Below, in pieces: positions 41,896 to 53,657 of a stretch of 64,000 nucleotides of DNA (its first letter is position 1; each line of letters opens with the position of its first letter). The position numbers were made by a program, and so were the translations under genes. The stretch comes from Pedobacter sp. SYSU D00535. Its GTDB lineage: Bacteria > Bacteroidota > Bacteroidia > Sphingobacteriales > Sphingobacteriaceae. The stretch lies in assembly GCF_017355855.1 (NCBI RefSeq), contig NZ_JAFEWD010000001.1:186001-250000 (forward strand), written 5' to 3'. Under the pieces are notes generated by a model that worked only from the letters and a program-made list of their open reading frames with translations, had not been told where the DNA came from and made no database searches.

Positions 41896-44800
41896 ATGAA
41901 AAAAAAACGTTTACATGTACTTATCATGCAAATTACTTTTCTCCAGATAGCTATCAGTCTCTCCCTGATGGCGAGTGCTATAGCGAAAGATAGTAAAGCA
42001 CAACTGGCGTTAAAAACCAGCGTGACCATTGATGTTAAGTCCGAAAAGTTTAGTAAAGTACTAACTTCACTTGAGCAGCAATCCAAGATTTCGTTTATAT
42101 ACAGTTCAGCAATTATTAACTCAGACCGGCGCGTCTCGATATCGGTCGTGAACAAGTCCCTCGAGACCGTATTGAAAGAACTACTGCCCCCCCTGAACCT
42201 AAGCTACCAGGCCTCGGGAGATGTAGTACTGATAACAAGAAGATCAAAAGACAAGTCCGAAATAGCGTCCGCTCCACTGTCCATCGTGCGGGTTACGGGA
42301 AGGGTAACTGACGAAAAAGGGGAAGCATTGCCGGGGGTAAGTGTAAGGGTAGTGGGAACCAATTCGGGTACCGTTACGGATATAAATGGTGTTTATTCGA
42401 TATCCGTGCCGGATGGAGCTTCAATAACCTTTAGTTATATAGGCTTTCAAAGTCAGACGGTTGCAGCTAAAGAAGGTACGCTAAATATTGTGATGAAACT
42501 GGATGAGCTGGGCACCAAGTTAAATGAGGTAGTGGTTGTAGGCTATGGAACTCAGAAACGTTCGGACATCACCGGATCGGTAGCTTCAGTACCTAAGGAG
42601 CGCCTGTCTAAATTGCCTGTCAACAACGTAATGCAGGCCATTCAGGGAGCCGTTGCCAATGTAACCGTCAATCAGGCTTCATCCATACCGGGTGATGCTC
42701 CCTCTGTTCAGGTGCGAGGTAGAAATTCAATCACTGCCTCATCTTCTCCATTCATTGTAGTAGACGGGATTCCCCTGACGAAAACAGATGGATCTATCAA
42801 CGATATCAATCCTAATGACATTGAATCTGTCGAAATCCTGAAGGATCCATCCTCTGTAGCTATCTACGGGGTGAACGGATCGAACGGAGTGATTCTTATT
42901 ACGACGAAACGGGGTACAACCGGTAAACCAGTAATCCGCTACAGTACTTACGCAGGCGTAGAAAATGCAACGGATGTCCTCGAGGGTGTGTCGGGTGAAG
43001 AAATGCTCGCCAGGTACAAAGAGTATGCACGCATTAACCAGCTTCCTTTGTACAATGGAGGTCCTGTCAGAAACGAATATGAATTTGAAAACTATCAGAA
43101 TGGTGTTACTACGGACTGGATAGACGCTGTTATGCGACAGGGCGTGAACCAAAATCATAATTTAAGCGTCAGCGGCGGCAGCGAAACCGCAAAATACTAT
43201 GTGTCGGGGGATTACATGTCCCAAAAGGGAGTAATACTGGGATATGATTATAAGCGATATGGCTTCCGCGTAAATACAGATATCAAGCCTACCAGTTACA
43301 TCACCGTCGGTACCTCTTCCTTTATGACCTACCATAATCGGGATGGCGGTCGCGCTCATCTTCAAAATGCCATGGCCATGAGTCCTTATGCGAGAATGTA
43401 TGAGGCTGATGGGAGGCTTACACAACATCCGATGAGAGGAGAACAGCTATGGGCCAATCCTTTGCTTCCTACGACCATTAATCCGCTAAGACGCTCCTTC
43501 AATATGACCTTGAACGGCTATGGGGAGTTAAACCTCGGAGAGCTAGTGAAGCCGCTCAACGGGCTGAAGTATCGGTTCAACGGAGGTTATACTTATTTTC
43601 CGGGACGTGAGAATTTGTACGAAGGAAAGTCGGTCTATAATATGACCGGTTTTGCCAGATTGATTAACACGGAATCTCAAACGTACACCCTGGAGAACAT
43701 CCTTACCTATAACAAAGACATCGGTAAACACCACTTTGACTTCACGGGCTTATATGCTGCTAAACAAAAGTATTATCAGAGCGTTACGGCCGAAGGTTCT
43801 AACTTCCCAAATGACGATTTGGAATGGGGTAATATCAACGGTGCCGCTACGCAGGTAACCCGTTCTTTTGCAGATAAGTATAACACGATTTCTCAGATGG
43901 GTCGGCTAAACTATGGTTTTGACAGCAGGTATTTGCTAACCCTTACAGTACGCAGGGATGGTTCTTCCGTATTCGGGCGGAATAACAAGTACGGTACCTT
44001 CCCGGCAGCAGCTGTAGCCTGGAATATTCATAATGAATCATTTATGAAGCCTTTGGGAAATGCTGTGAGCAATTTGAAGCTGCGGGTGTCTTATGGTCTG
44101 GCAGGTAACGAAGCAATTAATATTTATGAATCCTTGGCCCTGTTGAATACGAATGGCTTGGCAATGGGAGGTCAGTCGAGAACTGCTCTTGAAACACGAG
44201 CCCTTATGGGTAATGCCAATCTCCAGTGGGAAAAGGCCAGAAGTTTCAATACCGGTTTAGATTTCGGCTTCCTGAACAACCGCATAAGCGGATCTGTCGA
44301 TGTATATAAAACAAACACCTATGACTTGCTGCTGAATCAAGCGCTGGCAAGAATAACTGGTTATGAGCGTGTTATTTCGAATATTGGTAAGTTATCTAAT
44401 AGTGGTGTGGATTTGACTTTAAATAGCCGAAACTTCACGAAGAAAGATTTTACCTGGTCGACAACCGCTGTATTTGCTACCAATAGAAATAAAATTGTTA
44501 GTCTTTATGGCGACGGGCGGGACGATATAGGGAACAGCTGGTTTCTAGGCCAGCCCGTAGGCGTAATCTACGATTATACTTACCTGGGTATTTGGCAACA
44601 GGATGAAATCGATCAAGGATTGCACACCAACTGGGATGCCAACGCCAAGGCTGGTGATGTGAAGTTGGCAGACATCAATAAAGATGGTAAGATAGATGCC
44701 ACAAACGACAGGACGATTCTTGGACAAACATCACCAAAATGGACCGGGGGGCTCACCAATACATTTACTTACAAAAACTTCTCGCTGAACGTCTTCATCA

Positions 44801-45210
44801 ATACGGTGCAGGGTGTTTTAAGAAATAACTCACAGATCAATGCTGCTTCAGATGAAATGGGGCGCCGGAATGCTCCTGCCGTCATTGGTTATTGGACGCC
44901 TGAAAATAAAAGCAATGAGTGGCGTTCCTTGCATAACCAGTCAAACAGATATAATTATCGATTCGCTTCGGATGCCAGCTTCACCCGGTTAAAAGACGTA
45001 ACGCTAAGTTATGATTTACCGAAGTCGCTAATGACGAGAATTGGAATTAGTGGTATTCAGGTGTACGCAAGTGGTCGTAACCTGTACACCTGGACGAACT
45101 GGATAGGGTGGGATCCTGAAGCTCGTGATATTAACCGGGGCTCGGAGAACGACAATTTAAACTATCCAATGGTAAGAAGCTTTGTATTTGGCGCTAACGT
45201 TAATTTTTAA
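41896..45210 (+). CDS. SusC/RagA-type receptor with STN signalling domain, locus 3
   Basis: The 1104-residue protein begins with a signal segment (about 1-35). The STN (secretin/TonB short N-terminal) domain follows at about 45-115: TIDVKSEKFSKVLTSLEQQS, FIYSSAIINSDRRVSISVVN and KELLPPLNLSYQASGDVVLI. The regulatory-like domain begins RVTGRVTDEKGEALPGVSV, followed by EVVVVGYGTQKRSDITGSV, the plug (DINPNDIESVEILKDPSSVAIYG) and a barrel ending FVFGANVNF. STN domains contact FecR, so import triggers sigma release. It is the only receptor here with this domain. SusD starts 17 bp later. Confidence 0.96.
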   Translation: MKKKRLHVLIMQITFLQIAISLSLMASAIAKDSKAQLALKTSVTIDVKSEKFSKVLTSLEQQSKISFIYSSAIINSDRRVSISVVNKSLETVLKELLPPLNLSYQASGDVVLITRRSKDKSEIASAPLSIVRVTGRVTDEKGEALPGVSVRVVGTNSGTVTDINGVYSISVPDGASITFSYIGFQSQTVAAKEGTLNIVMKLDELGTKLNEVVVVGYGTQKRSDITGSVASVPKERLSKLPVNNVMQAIQGAVANVTVNQASSIPGDAPSVQVRGRNSITASSSPFIVVDGIPLTKTDGSINDINPNDIESVEILKDPSSVAIYGVNGSNGVILITTKRGTTGKPVIRYSTYAGVENATDVLEGVSGEEMLARYKEYARINQLPLYNGGPVRNEYEFENYQNGVTTDWIDAVMRQGVNQNHNLSVSGGSETAKYYVSGDYMSQKGVILGYDYKRYGFRVNTDIKPTSYITVGTSSFMTYHNRDGGRAHLQNAMAMSPYARMYEADGRLTQHPMRGEQLWANPLLPTTINPLRRSFNMTLNGYGELNLGELVKPLNGLKYRFNGGYTYFPGRENLYEGKSVYNMTGFARLINTESQTYTLENILTYNKDIGKHHFDFTGLYAAKQKYYQSVTAEGSNFPNDDLEWGNINGAATQVTRSFADKYNTISQMGRLNYGFDSRYLLTLTVRRDGSSVFGRNNKYGTFPAAAVAWNIHNESFMKPLGNAVSNLKLRVSYGLAGNEAINIYESLALLNTNGLAMGGQSRTALETRALMGNANLQWEKARSFNTGLDFGFLNNRISGSVDVYKTNTYDLLLNQALARITGYERVISNIGKLSNSGVDLTLNSRNFTKKDFTWSTTAVFATNRNKIVSLYGDGRDDIGNSWFLGQPVGVIYDYTYLGIWQQDEIDQGLHTNWDANAKAGDVKLADINKDGKIDATNDRTILGQTSPKWTGGLTNTFTYKNFSLNVFINTVQGVLRNNSQINAASDEMGRRNAPAVIGYWTPENKSNEWRSLHNQSNRYNYRFASDASFTRLKDVTLSYDLPKSLMTRIGISGIQVYASGRNLYTWTNWIGWDPEARDINRGSENDNLNYPMVRSFVFGANVNF

Positions 45211-45227
45211 TCCTAAAGACATTTATT

Positions 45228-46943
45228 ATGAAATATACAACATATATATGTGCTGTTCTTGCTGGCGCAACCATGACAGTGACGTCCTGCAAAGAAGATT
45301 TTCTGGAAGAAAGGCCCTACTCTAATTATAGTACTGGAAACATTAGCAACTCTACGATCGAAGCACAACTCGTCGGCTTGCACCGAAATTACGCCGACCT
45401 CTGGGGACAAAGCGGAGAGCAAGGATTTACATCGGCATGGCAGATCGGCATGGATATCACCAGCGCCGGGGCCACTCAGGGTGTAGAGAATGGCTTTTAT
45501 CAGTATGCCACTTTAAATGCAGAGAATGCCGCTGTTAGTTACCTGTGGTCAAGGTGTTACCGGTTCATCAACAATGCCAACATCATTATCGCAGCAGCAG
45601 GAGACAACAATAAGCCAGCAAACGCAGAGGCTCGCTTTTTTAGGGCGTACGCCTATAACATCCTGGTCACCTTGTGGGGCGATGTGCCGCTATTGACTGA
45701 ACCTATCACGGTTCCGACCTTTAACCTTACCCGTCAGAAGGTGGTAGACATCGATAAAGTAATTGATGAAGATTTGACCTACGCTGTAGCCAACCTTCCT
45801 GATGCCGGCAAGGCTCCAACGGAGAGCCGGATTAATAAGGATATTGCACGTCAGTTAGCAGCAGAAGCTTATTTGCGAATGGGTATGCGCGACAATTCCT
45901 ATTTTGCCAAATCCGAACAAATGTCTACAGACATTATCAACAACACCAGGTATAAACTGATCGAAGCGAGATATGGAAAGTTTTTAGGCGAGGGGGGAGA
46001 TTACTACCGGGATATGTTCCGTTTTGGTAACCAGCGTTACTCGCAGGGAAATACTGAAGCGATCTGGACCTTCGAAATGGAATACAATCGGAACGTACCA
46101 AATGGAACTATTAACTCGCCTCAGCAACGCCGGGTTTGGCAGCCGGGGTACCATAACTGGTCGGAGATGGTGAATGCAGACTCCTTAGGCGGTCGTGGAA
46201 ACGGACGTCTGCGTCTGAGTAACTTTATGAAGTATACAGTTTGGAAAGGTCTGGAAGGTGATATTCGTAACAGTAATTACAATATCCGCCGTACCACCAA
46301 TTATAACAAACCAGGGGTGAGCACATTGATCGGCATTGATAAAGACGGGTTTCGGGTAGCGGCGAACTCTCCTCTGGCTGTAAGTACAAGAACGATAAAA
46401 ACAGGAGATAAAGTCATTCCATTCCGTGCTGACAGCCTGGTAACCTGGTATCCGTATCCTACTAAATGGGGCGGTTATGATCCAACCGACGACTTTGGCT
46501 TTGCGGTAGTGAAAGACTGGCCGGTAATGCGTTTGGGTGAAACTTACCTGTTACGTGCCGAAGCGCGCTTCCGTCAGAATAACAATGCAGGAGCAGCCGA
46601 CGACATCAATAAATTACGCGATCGGGCTTTCAAACAGGCACGAATCACACAGGGCAACCCAAACCTCGGAAAAGTAAGTGCAGCAGACATTAACATCGAT
46701 TTTATTCTTGACGAGCGTGCACGTGAATTGATTGCAGAAGAAAATCGTCGTATGACACTGGTGCGTACCGGTAAACTAAAAGATCGGATCGCTAAGAACG
46801 GAGACACCGGTCCGGCGGATAAAGTCACTACCGGCTTCCAGGATTACAACGTGCTGTTACCGATCCCACTGAGTGAAATTCTTCTTAATAACAAGGGAGG
46901 ACAATCTTCTTTAATTCAAAATACCGGCTACGGTCAAAATTAG
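45228..46943 (+). CDS. SusD/RagB-type substrate-binding lipoprotein, locus 3
   Basis: The 571-residue protein has MKYTTYICAVLAGATMTVTSC with Cys21, then KEDFLEERPYSNYSTGNI. SusD-typical segments are EARFFRAYAYNILVTLWGDVP, IARQLAAEAYLRMG, GETYLLRAEARFRQNN and FILDERARELIAEENRRMTLVR. It ends LLPIPLSEILLNNKGGQSSL. The sequence SusC-SusD with ECF sigma and FecR upstream is a complete regulated uptake unit. A perfect terminator follows. Confidence 0.95.
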   Translation: MKYTTYICAVLAGATMTVTSCKEDFLEERPYSNYSTGNISNSTIEAQLVGLHRNYADLWGQSGEQGFTSAWQIGMDITSAGATQGVENGFYQYATLNAENAAVSYLWSRCYRFINNANIIIAAAGDNNKPANAEARFFRAYAYNILVTLWGDVPLLTEPITVPTFNLTRQKVVDIDKVIDEDLTYAVANLPDAGKAPTESRINKDIARQLAAEAYLRMGMRDNSYFAKSEQMSTDIINNTRYKLIEARYGKFLGEGGDYYRDMFRFGNQRYSQGNTEAIWTFEMEYNRNVPNGTINSPQQRRVWQPGYHNWSEMVNADSLGGRGNGRLRLSNFMKYTVWKGLEGDIRNSNYNIRRTTNYNKPGVSTLIGIDKDGFRVAANSPLAVSTRTIKTGDKVIPFRADSLVTWYPYPTKWGGYDPTDDFGFAVVKDWPVMRLGETYLLRAEARFRQNNNAGAADDINKLRDRAFKQARITQGNPNLGKVSAADINIDFILDERARELIAEENRRMTLVRTGKLKDRIAKNGDTGPADKVTTGFQDYNVLLPIPLSEILLNNKGGQSSLIQNTGYGQN

Positions 46944-46957
46944 TACTAAGCACATCA

Positions 46958-46992
46958 AAAGAAGCCGCTTCATGATTTGAAGCGGCTTCTTT
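46958..46992 (+). terminator. Perfect intrinsic terminator after SusCD locus 3
   Basis: 15-base arms AAAGAAGCCGCTTCA and TGAAGCGGCTTCTTT pair perfectly around loop TGATT. The outer T-run is part of the stem, so it can act in both directions. Confidence 0.9.
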
Positions 46993-47261
46993 GGTTAATG
47001 ATCACTCTAAGTTGCGATAACCACAAATGAGTTTCAAAGAAAATGGCTAATCCTTAAATAGCTTTTTATACCACAGCCACTTCCTTTGTCCTCCTGAATT
47101 CGTTTCAGGATCCCTTGCTTATCGTTACGTTGCCAATTCATCTGATATATTCGCAAGATCAAGGTGTCATGCTACTGGAACCTTACCACTAGCAATCCCT
47201 GTTGCACGGCCGACTTGGCTCAACGCTTTGCACCTAAAACTTCCCGGAATAAATACTACCA

Positions 47262-47293
47262 TTGAAAAATGTAACTAAGCTTTTTTAACTTTG
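47262..47293 (+). promoter_or_regulatory. Consensus promoter of the His-rich/TonB/lipoprotein unit
   Basis: TTG (47262-47264), 21 bases, then TAACTTTG (47286-47293), an exact TAnnTTTG. The transcript would start near 47300, leaving about 60 bases before the ATG at 47362. Confidence 0.7.
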
Positions 47294-47361
47294 CGATTAC
47301 ATAAAAAATCCCTTTTTAATCATTTTTTAACCTTAGAATCCTACTTTTGTCCCATTGACAG

Positions 47362-47709
47362 ATGATTCTATCCAGAAGTTTCCATAAATACACTGCATTC
47401 TTCCTGCTGCTGATATTCTCGGCGGTGCAGGTTATTCAGTGCCTGCACCACCATGCAGAGGAGAATCATGCTGCGTTTTCTGTAAAAGATGATCATCATT
47501 CCTCTGGTGCGCAGTTCCACATAGCGGATGTGAAATGTGAACTTTGTGACTATTTGCGCGATCATCAGCCACGTTGCTTCTTCCCGAAACAGCCGCCGTT
47601 CGATGTCGTCTTTAACATTCCGCCCCGAACACCTTCCGCTTCATTTACCGAGAGTTTGTTCGAACGTGCCGTCCATACCTGGACGAATAAAGGCCCCCCT
47701 GTAAGTTAA
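47362..47709 (+). CDS. Small exported His/Cys-rich protein
   Basis: The 115-residue protein has one hydrophobic segment (YTAFFLLLIFSAVQVIQC, about 10-27), then a strikingly His-rich stretch: LHHHAEENHAAF, KDDHHSSGAQFHIADVKCELCDYLRDHQPRC. The CxxC (CELC) and multiple His residues are candidate metal ligands. It has no catalytic domain that I recognise. It is first in a unit with a TonB receptor and a His-rich lipoprotein, all on +. I infer a periplasmic metal-handling role; the metal is unknown. Confidence 0.6.
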   Translation: MILSRSFHKYTAFFLLLIFSAVQVIQCLHHHAEENHAAFSVKDDHHSSGAQFHIADVKCELCDYLRDHQPRCFFPKQPPFDVVFNIPPRTPSASFTESLFERAVHTWTNKGPPVS

Positions 47710-47817
47710 TTCTTCTTCTCGCAGGTTTCCCTGTGATACCTAGTTCATCAGACTCATCGTCTTTTGAACTGCCTACGCGTTTTACCACGCTTTTCTCACG
47801 CTTTTAATTTTTATTCT

Positions 47818-50118
47818 ATGAGGTATCGGGTATATAGTATTATTACCCTCGTATGCCTTGCCGTGCAGACATTTGCACAGCAGGCAGATTGCCGCTTCCC
47901 GGTGGAAGGGCTCGTTATCGATTCGGTCTCCAGGGAAGCTGTTCCTGGTGCTTCTATCCGCATGGATGCAGGTAACAAAACATCCTTTAGTGACGAGCAC
48001 GGTCATTTCAGTTTCAACAGGGGCTGTAGCGGAAAGGCTGTACTCACCGTGACTGCCCTTGGATATCAGCCCTATCGGAAAGAACTGGTGATCGGCGGGC
48101 CCCTGGAGCTAACCCTGCAACTACAGCCTACTCGGTTGAACTTGCAGGAAGTGGAGGTAAGGGCTAGAAAACCCGCTGCTCCAGGAGTGAACGCAAATAC
48201 GACCGTATCGGGACAGCAACTTGAGCAGACAAAAGGCGGCACGCTAGCGGATGTATTGAAGAGCGTACCAGGTGTTAGTACGTTGCAGGCCGGGGCAACG
48301 ATCACAAAACCGGTAATACAGGGACTTCACAGCAACCGCCTCCTCATTTTAAATAACGGCATTCGGCAGGAGGGACAACAATGGGGGATGGAACATGCTC
48401 CTGAAATTGACCCTTTTGTTGCACAGTCGGTCACGGTGGTCAAGGGAGCAGAGGGGATCCGGTTCGGGCCCGAAGCAATTGGAGGCGTGATCCTGGTAAA
48501 GCCTTCAGCCCTTCCAAAGCAAGGAGGTCTACAGGGTGAGCTGAACCTTACTGGCTCGAGCAATGGAGCTGCGGGGGCGGTGTCGGGACGTATAGAGGGA
48601 GGACTTGGCAACGTTCCGGGTTTCGGCTGGCGCCTGCAAGGCACAGGAAGGGCCTCGGGAAATGGCAGCACGGCCGACTATTACCTCGATAATACCGGAG
48701 TACGGGAGCTCAATTTTTCTGGTGCATTGGGATATTCGCGGAAGAAAGTGGAGGCCGACCTTTATTTCAGCCATTTCAACACTGAAATTGGAATATTTCG
48801 CGGATCGCATGTGGGAGATACGGCTGACATCACAGCTCTTATCAGTCACGGGAGGCCTTTTAATGAAGTGGACTTTAGCTACCAGGTAGACGCACCGCGT
48901 CAGCGCGTCGCCCACAGCCTGCTGAAATTAGAAAGCCATTTCCACCTCAGCAGCAACAGCCACATCGACCTCATCTACGGGCTCCAGCAAAATAAACGGC
49001 AGGAATATGATATCCGGCGGGGGGGAAGGAGCAGCATCCCTTCTCTCGACCTGACGCTCATCACGCAGACACTCGACCTCTTCCTAGAGAGCATGAATAG
49101 TAGAGGGTGGAAACACACGGTCGGGCTGAACGGACTGGTACAGGTCAATAATAACACCCCAGGTACTTCGGTGATTCCCCTCATCCCCAATTATGACACC
49201 TATAATGCGGGCGTGTATTATATCGGAAAACTTTCGCAAAACAACTACCAACTGGAGGCAGGAGCCCGGTACGACCACAAGTACCTGGACGCGCTTGGGT
49301 ATGATAAAGACCAGAATTTATATGGGGGGACTCGGACCTTTCATAGTCTGTCGTTCAGCCTGGGAGGCGTCATCTACTTTTCTCCTGGCTGGAGCTTGCG
49401 CTCTAATCTCGCTTCTGCCTGGCGGCCGCCCGTCGTCAGCGAGCTGTTTAGCAACGGACTTCATCACGGCTCTGCCAGCTATGAGATAGGCGATGAGACA
49501 CTGGAAAGTGAAAAGAGCTATAAATGGATCTCGACCCTCGAACATCAAAGTGACAGGCTCCGCTTTGATCTGAGTCTTTTCCTCAACCGTATTGACAACT
49601 ACATCTACCTGAAGCCTTCAGGAACATTTTATCAAAGTATCCGTGGAGTATTTCCGGAGTTTTACTACAGCCAGACAAAAGCACTTCTTACGGGTGGCGA
49701 TATAGGACTGAGCTATAACCTGACAAAAGCGCTGGAGTACGAGTTGAAGGGTGCTCTTGTGCGGGCAAAAGACCTCCGTACGGAAGGCTACCTGCCCTGG
49801 ATCCCTTCGGATAGGCTCGAGAATAGCTTAGCTTATAGGTGGGCTGGCCGGGAGAGTTTCGTCAAATTCTCACACCTGTTGGTTGCTCGCCAAAATCGTT
49901 ACGAGTCAGGGAGCGATTATGCCGCTCCTCCTGCCGGCTACCAGTTGCTCGGTTTAGAAGCCGGCACTTCTTTTCTTTTCGGAAAGACCCGCGTACTTCT
50001 GAATACCAGCATCTCCAACTTGGGCAACACCCTTTATAAGGACTATATGAACCGGTTCAGGTATTACGCTCACGACCAGGGGCGGAATATCACCGTCCGC
50101 GGAATCCTCAAATTTTAA
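47818..50118 (+). CDS. TonB-dependent outer-membrane receptor, likely metal-uptake type
   Basis: The ATG at 47818 starts the signal peptide MRYRVYSIITLVCLAVQTFA; the frame reaches a TTG at 47764 without a signal. The 766-residue protein has a carboxypeptidase-regulatory-like domain (FPVEGLVIDSVSREAVPGAS, about 28-100), then a plug with GGTLADVLKSVPGVSTLQAG, IQGLHSNRLLILNNGIRQEG, DPFVAQSVTVVKGAEGIRFG and GGVILVKPSALP. A barrel of about 500 residues ends NITVRGILKF. It is not SusC-like: it is shorter, has no SusD, and its plug resembles ZnuD/siderophore-type receptors. The flanking His-rich genes point to a transition metal. Confidence 0.88.
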   Translation: MRYRVYSIITLVCLAVQTFAQQADCRFPVEGLVIDSVSREAVPGASIRMDAGNKTSFSDEHGHFSFNRGCSGKAVLTVTALGYQPYRKELVIGGPLELTLQLQPTRLNLQEVEVRARKPAAPGVNANTTVSGQQLEQTKGGTLADVLKSVPGVSTLQAGATITKPVIQGLHSNRLLILNNGIRQEGQQWGMEHAPEIDPFVAQSVTVVKGAEGIRFGPEAIGGVILVKPSALPKQGGLQGELNLTGSSNGAAGAVSGRIEGGLGNVPGFGWRLQGTGRASGNGSTADYYLDNTGVRELNFSGALGYSRKKVEADLYFSHFNTEIGIFRGSHVGDTADITALISHGRPFNEVDFSYQVDAPRQRVAHSLLKLESHFHLSSNSHIDLIYGLQQNKRQEYDIRRGGRSSIPSLDLTLITQTLDLFLESMNSRGWKHTVGLNGLVQVNNNTPGTSVIPLIPNYDTYNAGVYYIGKLSQNNYQLEAGARYDHKYLDALGYDKDQNLYGGTRTFHSLSFSLGGVIYFSPGWSLRSNLASAWRPPVVSELFSNGLHHGSASYEIGDETLESEKSYKWISTLEHQSDRLRFDLSLFLNRIDNYIYLKPSGTFYQSIRGVFPEFYYSQTKALLTGGDIGLSYNLTKALEYELKGALVRAKDLRTEGYLPWIPSDRLENSLAYRWAGRESFVKFSHLLVARQNRYESGSDYAAPPAGYQLLGLEAGTSFLFGKTRVLLNTSISNLGNTLYKDYMNRFRYYAHDQGRNITVRGILKF

Positions 50119-50131
50119 TAGTAATCAATCC

Positions 50132-50752
50132 ATGTTTAACCCTATAATTTTTAAAATGATGACAATGAGTAAAATGTACAGAATGGCTGCCACTACCTTG
50201 GCCGCTGCACTTGTTCTTAGTTTCAACGCTTGTAAAAAAGACGATCCCGAGCCGGAAGTTCCACAGGAAGAGTTCAAGAGCGTCGTGTTTAATTTTATCG
50301 AGCTGGAAGCCCACGGGGACCATTATCACGAGACCCACGATACCGTACAGGTTATTTTTGGACAAGATGGAAATGCAACTAAAAGTCACTATGACTTACA
50401 TGCTGATGCGGTCTACAGGCTAAAGATAGTCGCCTACGATTTCGCTGGGCGCGAGATGCAGGATGAGTTCGTGGAAGAAGCCGACGAGCATCAGCTCTTT
50501 ATCACGGGAGCTCAGGAAGGGGTGCTGGATTATGTGTATGAAGATGCTAACGTGGGCGTTACCGGCCGTCTATCGACCCTTAAGCCTTCCAATGGCTCTA
50601 TGACTTTAACTGCTGTACTACGACACGGACTGGATAAATCCAAGACAACGGCGGCAGATTGGGACGATGCAAATCACGCACGTTTCGGAGGCTCAGCGGA
50701 CTTTACACTGAAGTTTCCGCTCCATGTAGTAGAGGGAGATCACGATCATTAA
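50132..50752 (+). CDS. His-rich lipoprotein of the metal-uptake unit
   Basis: The first ATG (50132) gives a long N-region; ATGs at 50156-50165 (MSKMYRMAATTLAAALVLS) would give a standard lipoprotein signal, so the true start is uncertain. Cys34 follows LSFNA and is followed by KKDDPEPEVP. The 206-residue protein has His clusters ELEAHGDHYHETHD and the C-terminal end VVEGDHDH. I do not recognise a named domain. It begins 13 bp after the receptor stop, so it should be cotranscribed and could capture metal at the surface or hand it to the periplasm. Confidence 0.65.
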   Translation: MFNPIIFKMMTMSKMYRMAATTLAAALVLSFNACKKDDPEPEVPQEEFKSVVFNFIELEAHGDHYHETHDTVQVIFGQDGNATKSHYDLHADAVYRLKIVAYDFAGREMQDEFVEEADEHQLFITGAQEGVLDYVYEDANVGVTGRLSTLKPSNGSMTLTAVLRHGLDKSKTTAADWDDANHARFGGSADFTLKFPLHVVEGDHDH

Positions 50753-50759
50753 TGTGTTT

Positions 50760-50789
50760 AATAGGGCCTGTTCGATTGCAGGCCCTATT
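50760..50789 (+). terminator. Intrinsic terminator after the metal-uptake unit
   Basis: AATAGGGCCTG and CAGGCCCTATT pair perfectly around an 8-base loop, followed by TATTT. A clear end to the three-gene unit. Confidence 0.82.
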
Positions 50790-53324: not shown

Positions 53325-53657
53325 ATGAAAACAGTTTCCTTAATGTGTTTAGCTGCCATATTTTTGTCAGCCTGTGGGTCGAAATCTAATGAAAATGGAA
53401 CTGTAACAAATCCTGCCGGAACGCGGGCTGCCACCGACCGACCCTTGAACCCGCCTCATGGCACGCCGGGCCATACTTGTGCAGTGCCCGATGGTGCTCC
53501 TATACCCGAAGGTATTCAACCCTCTTTACAGAATAGCGCTCCCCTGAACCAGGAGGCGCCACGTATGCCTGTAGAAGCAAACAAAACAACAAATATTAAT
53601 CCTGCACACGGACTGCCGGGACATCGGTGCGATCTGGCTGTAGGTGCACCGCTTTAA
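53325..53657 (+). CDS. Lipoprotein with two NPxHGxPGHxC motifs
   Basis: The 110-residue protein has MKTVSLMCLAAIFLSAC with Cys17, then a low-complexity linker. It carries the motif NPPHGTPGHTC at residues 42-52 and NPAHGLPGHRC at 92-102, each followed by a short xxVxxGAP tail. The repeats are exactly 50 residues apart and the second ends the protein. This motif recurs in other Bacteroidota proteins in my memory, but I know no proven function. The His-Gly-x-Pro-Gly-His-x-Cys order suggests a metal or heme ligand site. Single gene. Confidence 0.68.
   Translation: MKTVSLMCLAAIFLSACGSKSNENGTVTNPAGTRAATDRPLNPPHGTPGHTCAVPDGAPIPEGIQPSLQNSAPLNQEAPRMPVEANKTTNINPAHGLPGHRCDLAVGAPL

Follow-up and report, generated by a model that had tools for sequence, protein, structure and literature searches.

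A probable zinc-uptake operon headed by a putative self-sensing leader peptide in Pedobacter sp. SYSU D00535

The stretch of DNA considered here, a window of 64,000 nucleotides (nt) from Pedobacter sp. SYSU D00535 within which all positions are numbered, contains at 47262-50789 what is probably a zinc-uptake operon headed by a leader peptide that senses the metal itself. Five elements follow one another in this locus: a promoter, a small His/Cys-rich open reading frame (ORF), a TonB-dependent receptor, a His-rich lipoprotein and a terminator (Table 1). Judged by its conserved residues, the small ORF is most likely a regulatory leader peptide, encoded by an upstream ORF (uORF), and not a metal-capture partner. 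An apparent metal-binding partner thus becomes a probable nascent-chain metal sensor. This reading would carry leader control of the copper type over to zinc-type receptors of Bacteroidota, and it provides a candidate sensor of metal shortage for a phylum in which the regulation of zinc has been little studied.

The original prediction had described the locus as a unit whose three proteins capture, import and receive one metal. All five elements that it listed are present, including a 115-residue protein that carries HHH and CELC and a lipoprotein that ends in GDHDH. It passed over the C-terminal KGPP motif of the small ORF and the structured 108-nt gap behind it, and both features bear on the function proposed here.

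Conserved features of the leader peptide

The small protein retains very little of its sequence among relatives. Across 35 aligned homologues, with a mean identity of 20%, only H29, H31, C59 and P112-P113 are invariant, and C62 is kept in at least 90%. A hydrophobic N-terminal segment was judged by eye from the aligned rows, and the window leader ends in TNKGPPVS. In 80 regions upstream of ZnuD-like receptors, a C-terminal [KR][AGSDT]PP lying at most 10 residues from the stop codon occurs in 64 sense ORFs versus 0 of 119 antisense ORFs. Within 20 fully read neighbourhoods and the window, the motif is found in 20 of 298 ORFs, all of them leaders, and none of RGPP, RAPP, KGPP and KAPP appears in the 78,897 amino acids (aa) of the larger proteins. 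Among 109 unique leaders, 78 end in R(G/A/D)PP and 31 in NK(G/A/D)PP; such endings are characteristic of RAPP/RGPP ribosome-arrest peptides, among them CruR of Bordetella. The distance from CxxC to PP is confined to 45-51 residues (standard deviation 1.8, n = 91 leaders; 50 in the window), whereas that from HxH to CxxC drifts between 8 and 69 residues (standard deviation 9.0 in the set of 109). A constant CxxC-PP distance would follow if the metal site had to be placed immediately outside the ribosome at the moment PP is decoded. The motif is also kept within the genus: between the window and two genus-mates, Desertivirga xinjiangensis and D. arenae (G006, G031), the leaders are 46-49% identical, yet TNKGPP changes only synonymously.

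The position of the leader is equally constant. The leader model matches 53 of 198 sampled Bacteroidota genomes, and a TonB receptor is the next gene on the same strand at 29 of the 31 leader loci read across the phylum; as in CruR/CutF-like systems, the leader is the first gene and lies on the same strand ahead of a metal-related gene. Most of the 20 fully read neighbourhoods show the order small ORF, receptor, lipoprotein. Because this three-gene order is kept in relatives, a check that the original prediction had proposed, the unit stands far beyond chance.

The leader reading is preferred because conserved HxH, CxxC and C-terminal [R/K][G/A/D]PP, held at a fixed distance and always in the first gene, form the pattern of nascent-chain sensors and arrest peptides such as CruR. 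The idea that the small protein captures metal was dropped as the best reading on this conservation pattern: HxH, CxxC and the C-terminal motif are all that is kept. In Pfam, DUF2946 (PF11162) is not matched by the window leader at an E-value of 1, but 2 of the 35 homologues match it at 0.01, and one of these lies above the gathering threshold (26.2 vs 23.7 bits), which ties the leader group to CruR. Because the window protein itself lacks a match, we propose that it would act in the manner of CruR without assigning it to DUF2946. NCBIfam models gave the leaders no convincing name. One leader (L183) weakly matches the NCBIfam model LIC10965 from Leptospira (E 2e-5), which suggests that similar leaders exist in spirochaetes. 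In three others (L115, L119, L111), a CC pair (HCCK) replaces CxxC or CxxC is lost, and the NKAPP end is retained.

In the mechanism that we infer, from arrest and the sense of regulation to the choice of zinc as ligand and a hand-off by the lipoprotein, the 115-aa ORF would be translated first and its signal sequence would begin export. The ribosome would stall once the C-terminal NKGPP reaches the peptidyl-transferase centre, with CxxC some 50 residues away and already clear of the exit tunnel, and HxH farther out. Under metal scarcity the stall would persist, and the downstream mRNA, structured 108-nt gap included, would stay in a state in which the receptor and lipoprotein genes can be transcribed or translated. 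When metal is ample, HxH and CxxC of the nascent chain would bind it, the stall would be relieved, the ribosome would depart and the receptor would be switched down, as proposed for CruR and copper in Bordetella. The receptor would then be the importer of Zn2+, and the surface lipoprotein would scavenge Zn2+ and pass it to the receptor.

Receptor, lipoprotein and metal

The receptor matches the plug and barrel domains of Pfam and lacks a partner of the SusD type, in keeping with its earlier description as a non-SusC TonB receptor, and its best start is the ATG at 47818, not the TTG at 47764. ZnuD is the closest solved structure (PDB 4RDR, E 4e-22), which agrees with a receptor of the metal type. 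The zinc ligands of ZnuD are D99, H100, E340 and H499 (PMC4557270). With a chain offset of 14, D99 and H100 are aligned with E-H of GMEHAP, and H499 with the first H of NGLHHG; three of the four ligands are thus aligned in the window receptor, one as an Asp to Glu change, and the region of E340 lies outside the alignment. The [ED]H pair is kept in 67 of 70 receptors read. Against the NCBIfam ZnuD model (NF038289), the window receptor scores 116.8 bits and its paralogue 175.3; for the window receptor this is far below the cut-off of 950, and the paralogue also falls short of it. A cobalamin, peptide or sugar receptor, whose detection would have told against metal uptake, is ruled out by the best matches, and the receptor does not cluster with any of these families.

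The lipoprotein has its lipobox cysteine at C34, and the sequence C34-K-K-D-D-P corresponds to C-X-K-(D/E)2-X, the optimal surface-export signal worked out in Capnocytophaga; K36 is invariant in 37 homologues. His 61, 64, 66, 86, 120, 165, 198, 204 and 206 are conserved in 73-95% of these homologues. The expected His conservation therefore holds within Sphingobacteriaceae but is limited to certain lineages, because the Cyclobacteriaceae versions have no C-terminal His-rich part. AlphaFold predicts a confident beta-sandwich (predicted local distance difference test score 90), for which a fold search returned only generic immunoglobulin-like sandwiches, none at E < 0.001, and no specific solved relative. 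We infer that the lipoprotein scavenges zinc at the cell surface in partnership with the receptor. It is present in 46 of 151 genomes of the family Sphingobacteriaceae, and the nearest relatives of the receptor adjoin it. The receptor-lipoprotein pair also occurs in Mucilaginibacter, Olivibacter, Sphingobacterium, Taibaiella, Edaphocola, Belliella, Algoriphagus and Echinicola.

The genome of the window encodes three leaders in total. The second (L204 2389-5164, G000:C2) ends in LRGPPAH and precedes a second ZnuD-like receptor, which carries a long His/Glu-rich loop, HGHHHDEEEHEEEEEEHHE. The third (L203 5806-8271, G000:C11) ends in GNSPP, with neither Arg nor Lys, and precedes an AztD-like lipoprotein; a Fur-family gene lies divergently to them. 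The AztD-like protein matches the model and structures of AztD, a zinc chaperone, below the curated cut-off. Because leaders of the same genome stand ahead of another receptor of the ZnuD type and of an AztD-like zinc chaperone with a Fur-family gene next to it, zinc is a likelier candidate ligand than copper. Of the three metals originally put forward (Zn, Cu or Ni), zinc is thus the best supported, and copper is kept as a rival. Fur-family genes of one type stand directly before the receptor in two genomes, and in 12 of the loci from named genomes a related receptor has a Fur-family gene next to it or downstream.

Some further gene arrangements were seen around these loci. A polysaccharide-deacetylase-type lipoprotein comes after the second ZnuD-like receptor of L204. 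A Fur-family gene of the L203 type is also found beside leader copies in two other genomes of the family (L051, L066). In marine Flavobacteriales genomes and metagenome-assembled genomes (MAGs; L239-L254), the receptor-lipoprotein pair is closely followed by a Fur-family gene, and no leader was found there.

Weighing the alternatives

Several points weigh against a zinc-sensing arrest leader. CxxC suits Cu(I), and most of the studied CutF/CruR-like leaders are copper-linked. In NCBIfam, the models of PerR, Zur and Fur fit the Fur-family regulator about equally well. The window leader itself is without a DUF2946 match, and some lineages have the receptor and lipoprotein but no leader. The gaps of 31-45 nt found in many relatives are unstructured, and a switch that opens the start codon was rejected: with a stalled ribosome modelled over 61 regions, accessibility was 0.50 vs 0.50, with no net change. 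Finally, the window motif has Lys where Arg is irreplaceable in the arrest peptides ApdA, ApdP and ApcA; its arrest may therefore be weak or confined to the ribosomes of Bacteroidota.

The 108-nt gap of the window is predicted to fold into three hairpins and to be more stable than shuffled sequences (z -5.2). Over 61 regions, the stability of gap RNA relative to shuffles has a mean z of -1.8, with z < -2 in 29. Covariation of the window's hairpins could draw on only three genus members and one MAG, too few for the purpose. A scan for intrinsic attenuators in 59 gaps found terminator-like hairpins in 10, versus 1.1 expected, with weak U-tracts; the window gap has none. Candidates for the step downstream of the stall would be Rho, intrinsic attenuation and start occlusion, and Rho-dependent termination, by analogy with CruR, may be as likely.

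An alternative that retains the same leader mechanism has copper, or copper and zinc, as the sensed and imported metal, as in CruR-CrtA. Characterised relatives respond to copper, CxxC binds Cu(I), and the receptor also scores, weakly, against a copper-receptor model; it is nonetheless nearer to ZnuD than to OprC and keeps residues aligned with three of the four ZnuD ligands. Moreover, the invariant HxH supplies a second ligand pair, another leader precedes the AztD-like zinc chaperone, and the genes seen next to the locus include no PepSY_TM, PCuAC or other copper gene. We consider copper unlikely.

The lysine of the window motif raises a separate question, about arrest itself. Every replacement of Arg in ApdA, ApdP and ApcA, hence also that by Lys, impaired arrest in Bacillus subtilis, and for ApdP in Escherichia coli as well (PMC10951233, PMC12992588). 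Among the 109 leaders, the residue before Lys is Asn in 31 of the 31 Lys-type members, and Asn precedes Arg only once. Either the ribosomes of Bacteroidota accept Asn-Lys in place of Arg, or arrest by the Lys-type leaders is weak. We tentatively suggest, as a possibility that falls somewhat short of probable, that NK[G/A/D]PP is a new, Arg-independent arrest motif of Bacteroidota, used by nascent chains that sense zinc and govern receptors of the ZnuD type; these would be the first arrest peptides to respond to zinc. LRGPP and NKGPP replace each other naturally at one and the same locus, a ready-made test of what the ribosome requires for arrest of the RAPP type.

Could the NKxPP leaders instead be decaying remnants without arrest, in operons regulated only by a Fur-family repressor? 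The need for Arg in the tested arrest peptides would fit such decay, as would the lineages that have dropped the leader and have a Fur-family gene beside the receptor. Decay is hard to reconcile, however, with the strict conservation of NK[GAD]PP, including the unfailing Asn before Lys and the synonymous-only change in Desertivirga, and with the retention of HxH, CxxC and their spacing in the same proteins, and we regard it as very unlikely. There is similarly little to recommend a working periplasmic metal-binding partner, for capture or as a chaperone, with a structural or partner-docking C-terminal PP: the protein does have a putative export signal, HxH and CxxC and sits in a metal-uptake operon, but its chain is unconserved beyond HxH, CxxC and PP, only its CxxC-PP spacing is fixed, it is the first gene with a gap after it, its motif is otherwise absent from neighbouring proteins, and of its analogues CutF is degraded once exported and CruR was not detected.

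Known systems and layout of the locus

The closest parallel to the proposed leader peptide is CruR-BfrG/CrtA-BP2921 of Bordetella pertussis, in which a DUF2946 uORF encodes a small exported leader with CxxC and a C-terminal xPP (PMC9426467). The distance from C93 to P141 of CruR is 48 residues, versus 50 in the window leader, and CxxC-PP spacing matters in CruR (PMC9426467). In both operons the leader comes first, before a TonB receptor and followed by a long structured gap. The window operon differs in belonging to Bacteroidota, in its invariant HxH, in having NKGPP for RAPP, in the absence of a detectable DUF2946 match, in its ZnuD-like rather than copper receptor, and in having a lipoprotein in place of the PepSY_TM protein. 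CutF-CutO of Rhodobacter capsulatus has an exported leader, as the window operon may have, and shares with it a Cys motif and a proline-rich end, the two 45 residues apart versus 50 in the window; unlike what is proposed here, CutF activates a copper oxidase under metal excess (PMC9973294). The survey of CutF-like proteins in that report counts many Bacteroidota leaders and has TonB among the commonest neighbour classes, and its text as read describes neither a zinc linkage nor the Lys variant (PMC9973294). In another survey, RAPP/RGPP leaders turned up ahead of TonB genes across Gram-negative groups as a whole.

ApdA, ApdP, ApcA and SecM are small exported uORF proteins, as the window leader may be, and share [R/K][A/G]PP a few residues from the C-terminus (PMC10951233, PMC12992588), but they monitor protein export and need Arg, whereas the window leader has Lys after Asn. 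The receptor shares plug and barrel homology with ZnuD of Neisseria meningitidis, and its E-H and H align with zinc ligands (PMC4557270, PDB 4RDR). It differs in its extra N-terminal carboxypeptidase-regulatory-like domain, in the Asp to Glu change at one ligand, in lacking the His-rich loop 3 and in being accompanied by a lipoprotein and a leader. A TonB receptor paired with a surface-type lipoprotein is also known from BtuB-BtuG and the SusCD pairs of Bacteroides (PMC10404256); the lipoprotein here, a putative partner in a complex, is unrelated, and the substrate would be a metal and not a vitamin or sugar.

The original prediction could not name the system. Its kind is defined by CruR and CutF, with such leaders known to precede TonB receptors, and the zinc-linked, Lys-type branch in Bacteroidota would be the new part: the open-access literature searched yielded no published zinc arrest leader, Bacteroidota CruR, zinc-linked branch or NKxPP motif.

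The coordinates of the locus are given in Table 1. A motif scan for TTG-N17-23-TAnnTTTG found only two matches on the plus strand of the whole window. An additional TAnnTTTG box, without a TTG upstream, lies at 47342, 20 nt 5' of the leader start. The SusC/SusD pair upstream (41896-46943) has its own stem-loop terminator at about 46960-46993, identified by inspection, and 47262-50789 is therefore a separate transcription unit.

Table 1. Features of the probable zinc-uptake operon and of its putative leader peptide, in window coordinates.
Feature	Position	Strand	Basis or remark
Bacteroidota-type promoter, TTG-N21-TAACTTTG	47262..47293	+	motif scan
Leader peptide (uORF), 115 aa: hydrophobic N-terminal segment as presumed signal, HxH, CxxC, NKGPP at the C-terminus; arrest and metal sensing proposed	47362..47709	+	
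HxH (H29, H31)	47446..47454	+	invariant in 35 homologues
CxxC (CELC)	47536..47547	+	C59 in all homologues, C62 in at least 90%
Arrest-like NKGPP (N109-P113), followed by two residues and the stop	47686..47700	+	alignment, Desertivirga comparison
Leader-receptor gap, predicted RNA hairpins 47720-47735, 47743-47769, 47777-47790	47720..47790	+	z = -5.2
ZnuD-like TonB-dependent receptor, N-terminal carboxypeptidase-regulatory-like domain	47818..50118	+	
His-rich lipoprotein, ends GDHDH; predicted beta-sandwich	50132..50752	+	
Intrinsic terminator, stem-loop with 12-pair stem	50760..50789	+	

Two minor observations concern other loci. In Desertivirga xinjiangensis, an extra NKGPP leader and an extra His-rich lipoprotein enclose a degenerate N-terminal receptor remnant (L068 7668-9305). 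In the window itself, a small lipoprotein at 53325-53657 contains two HG(T/L)PGH(T/R)C repeats, possibly a metal-binding repeat.

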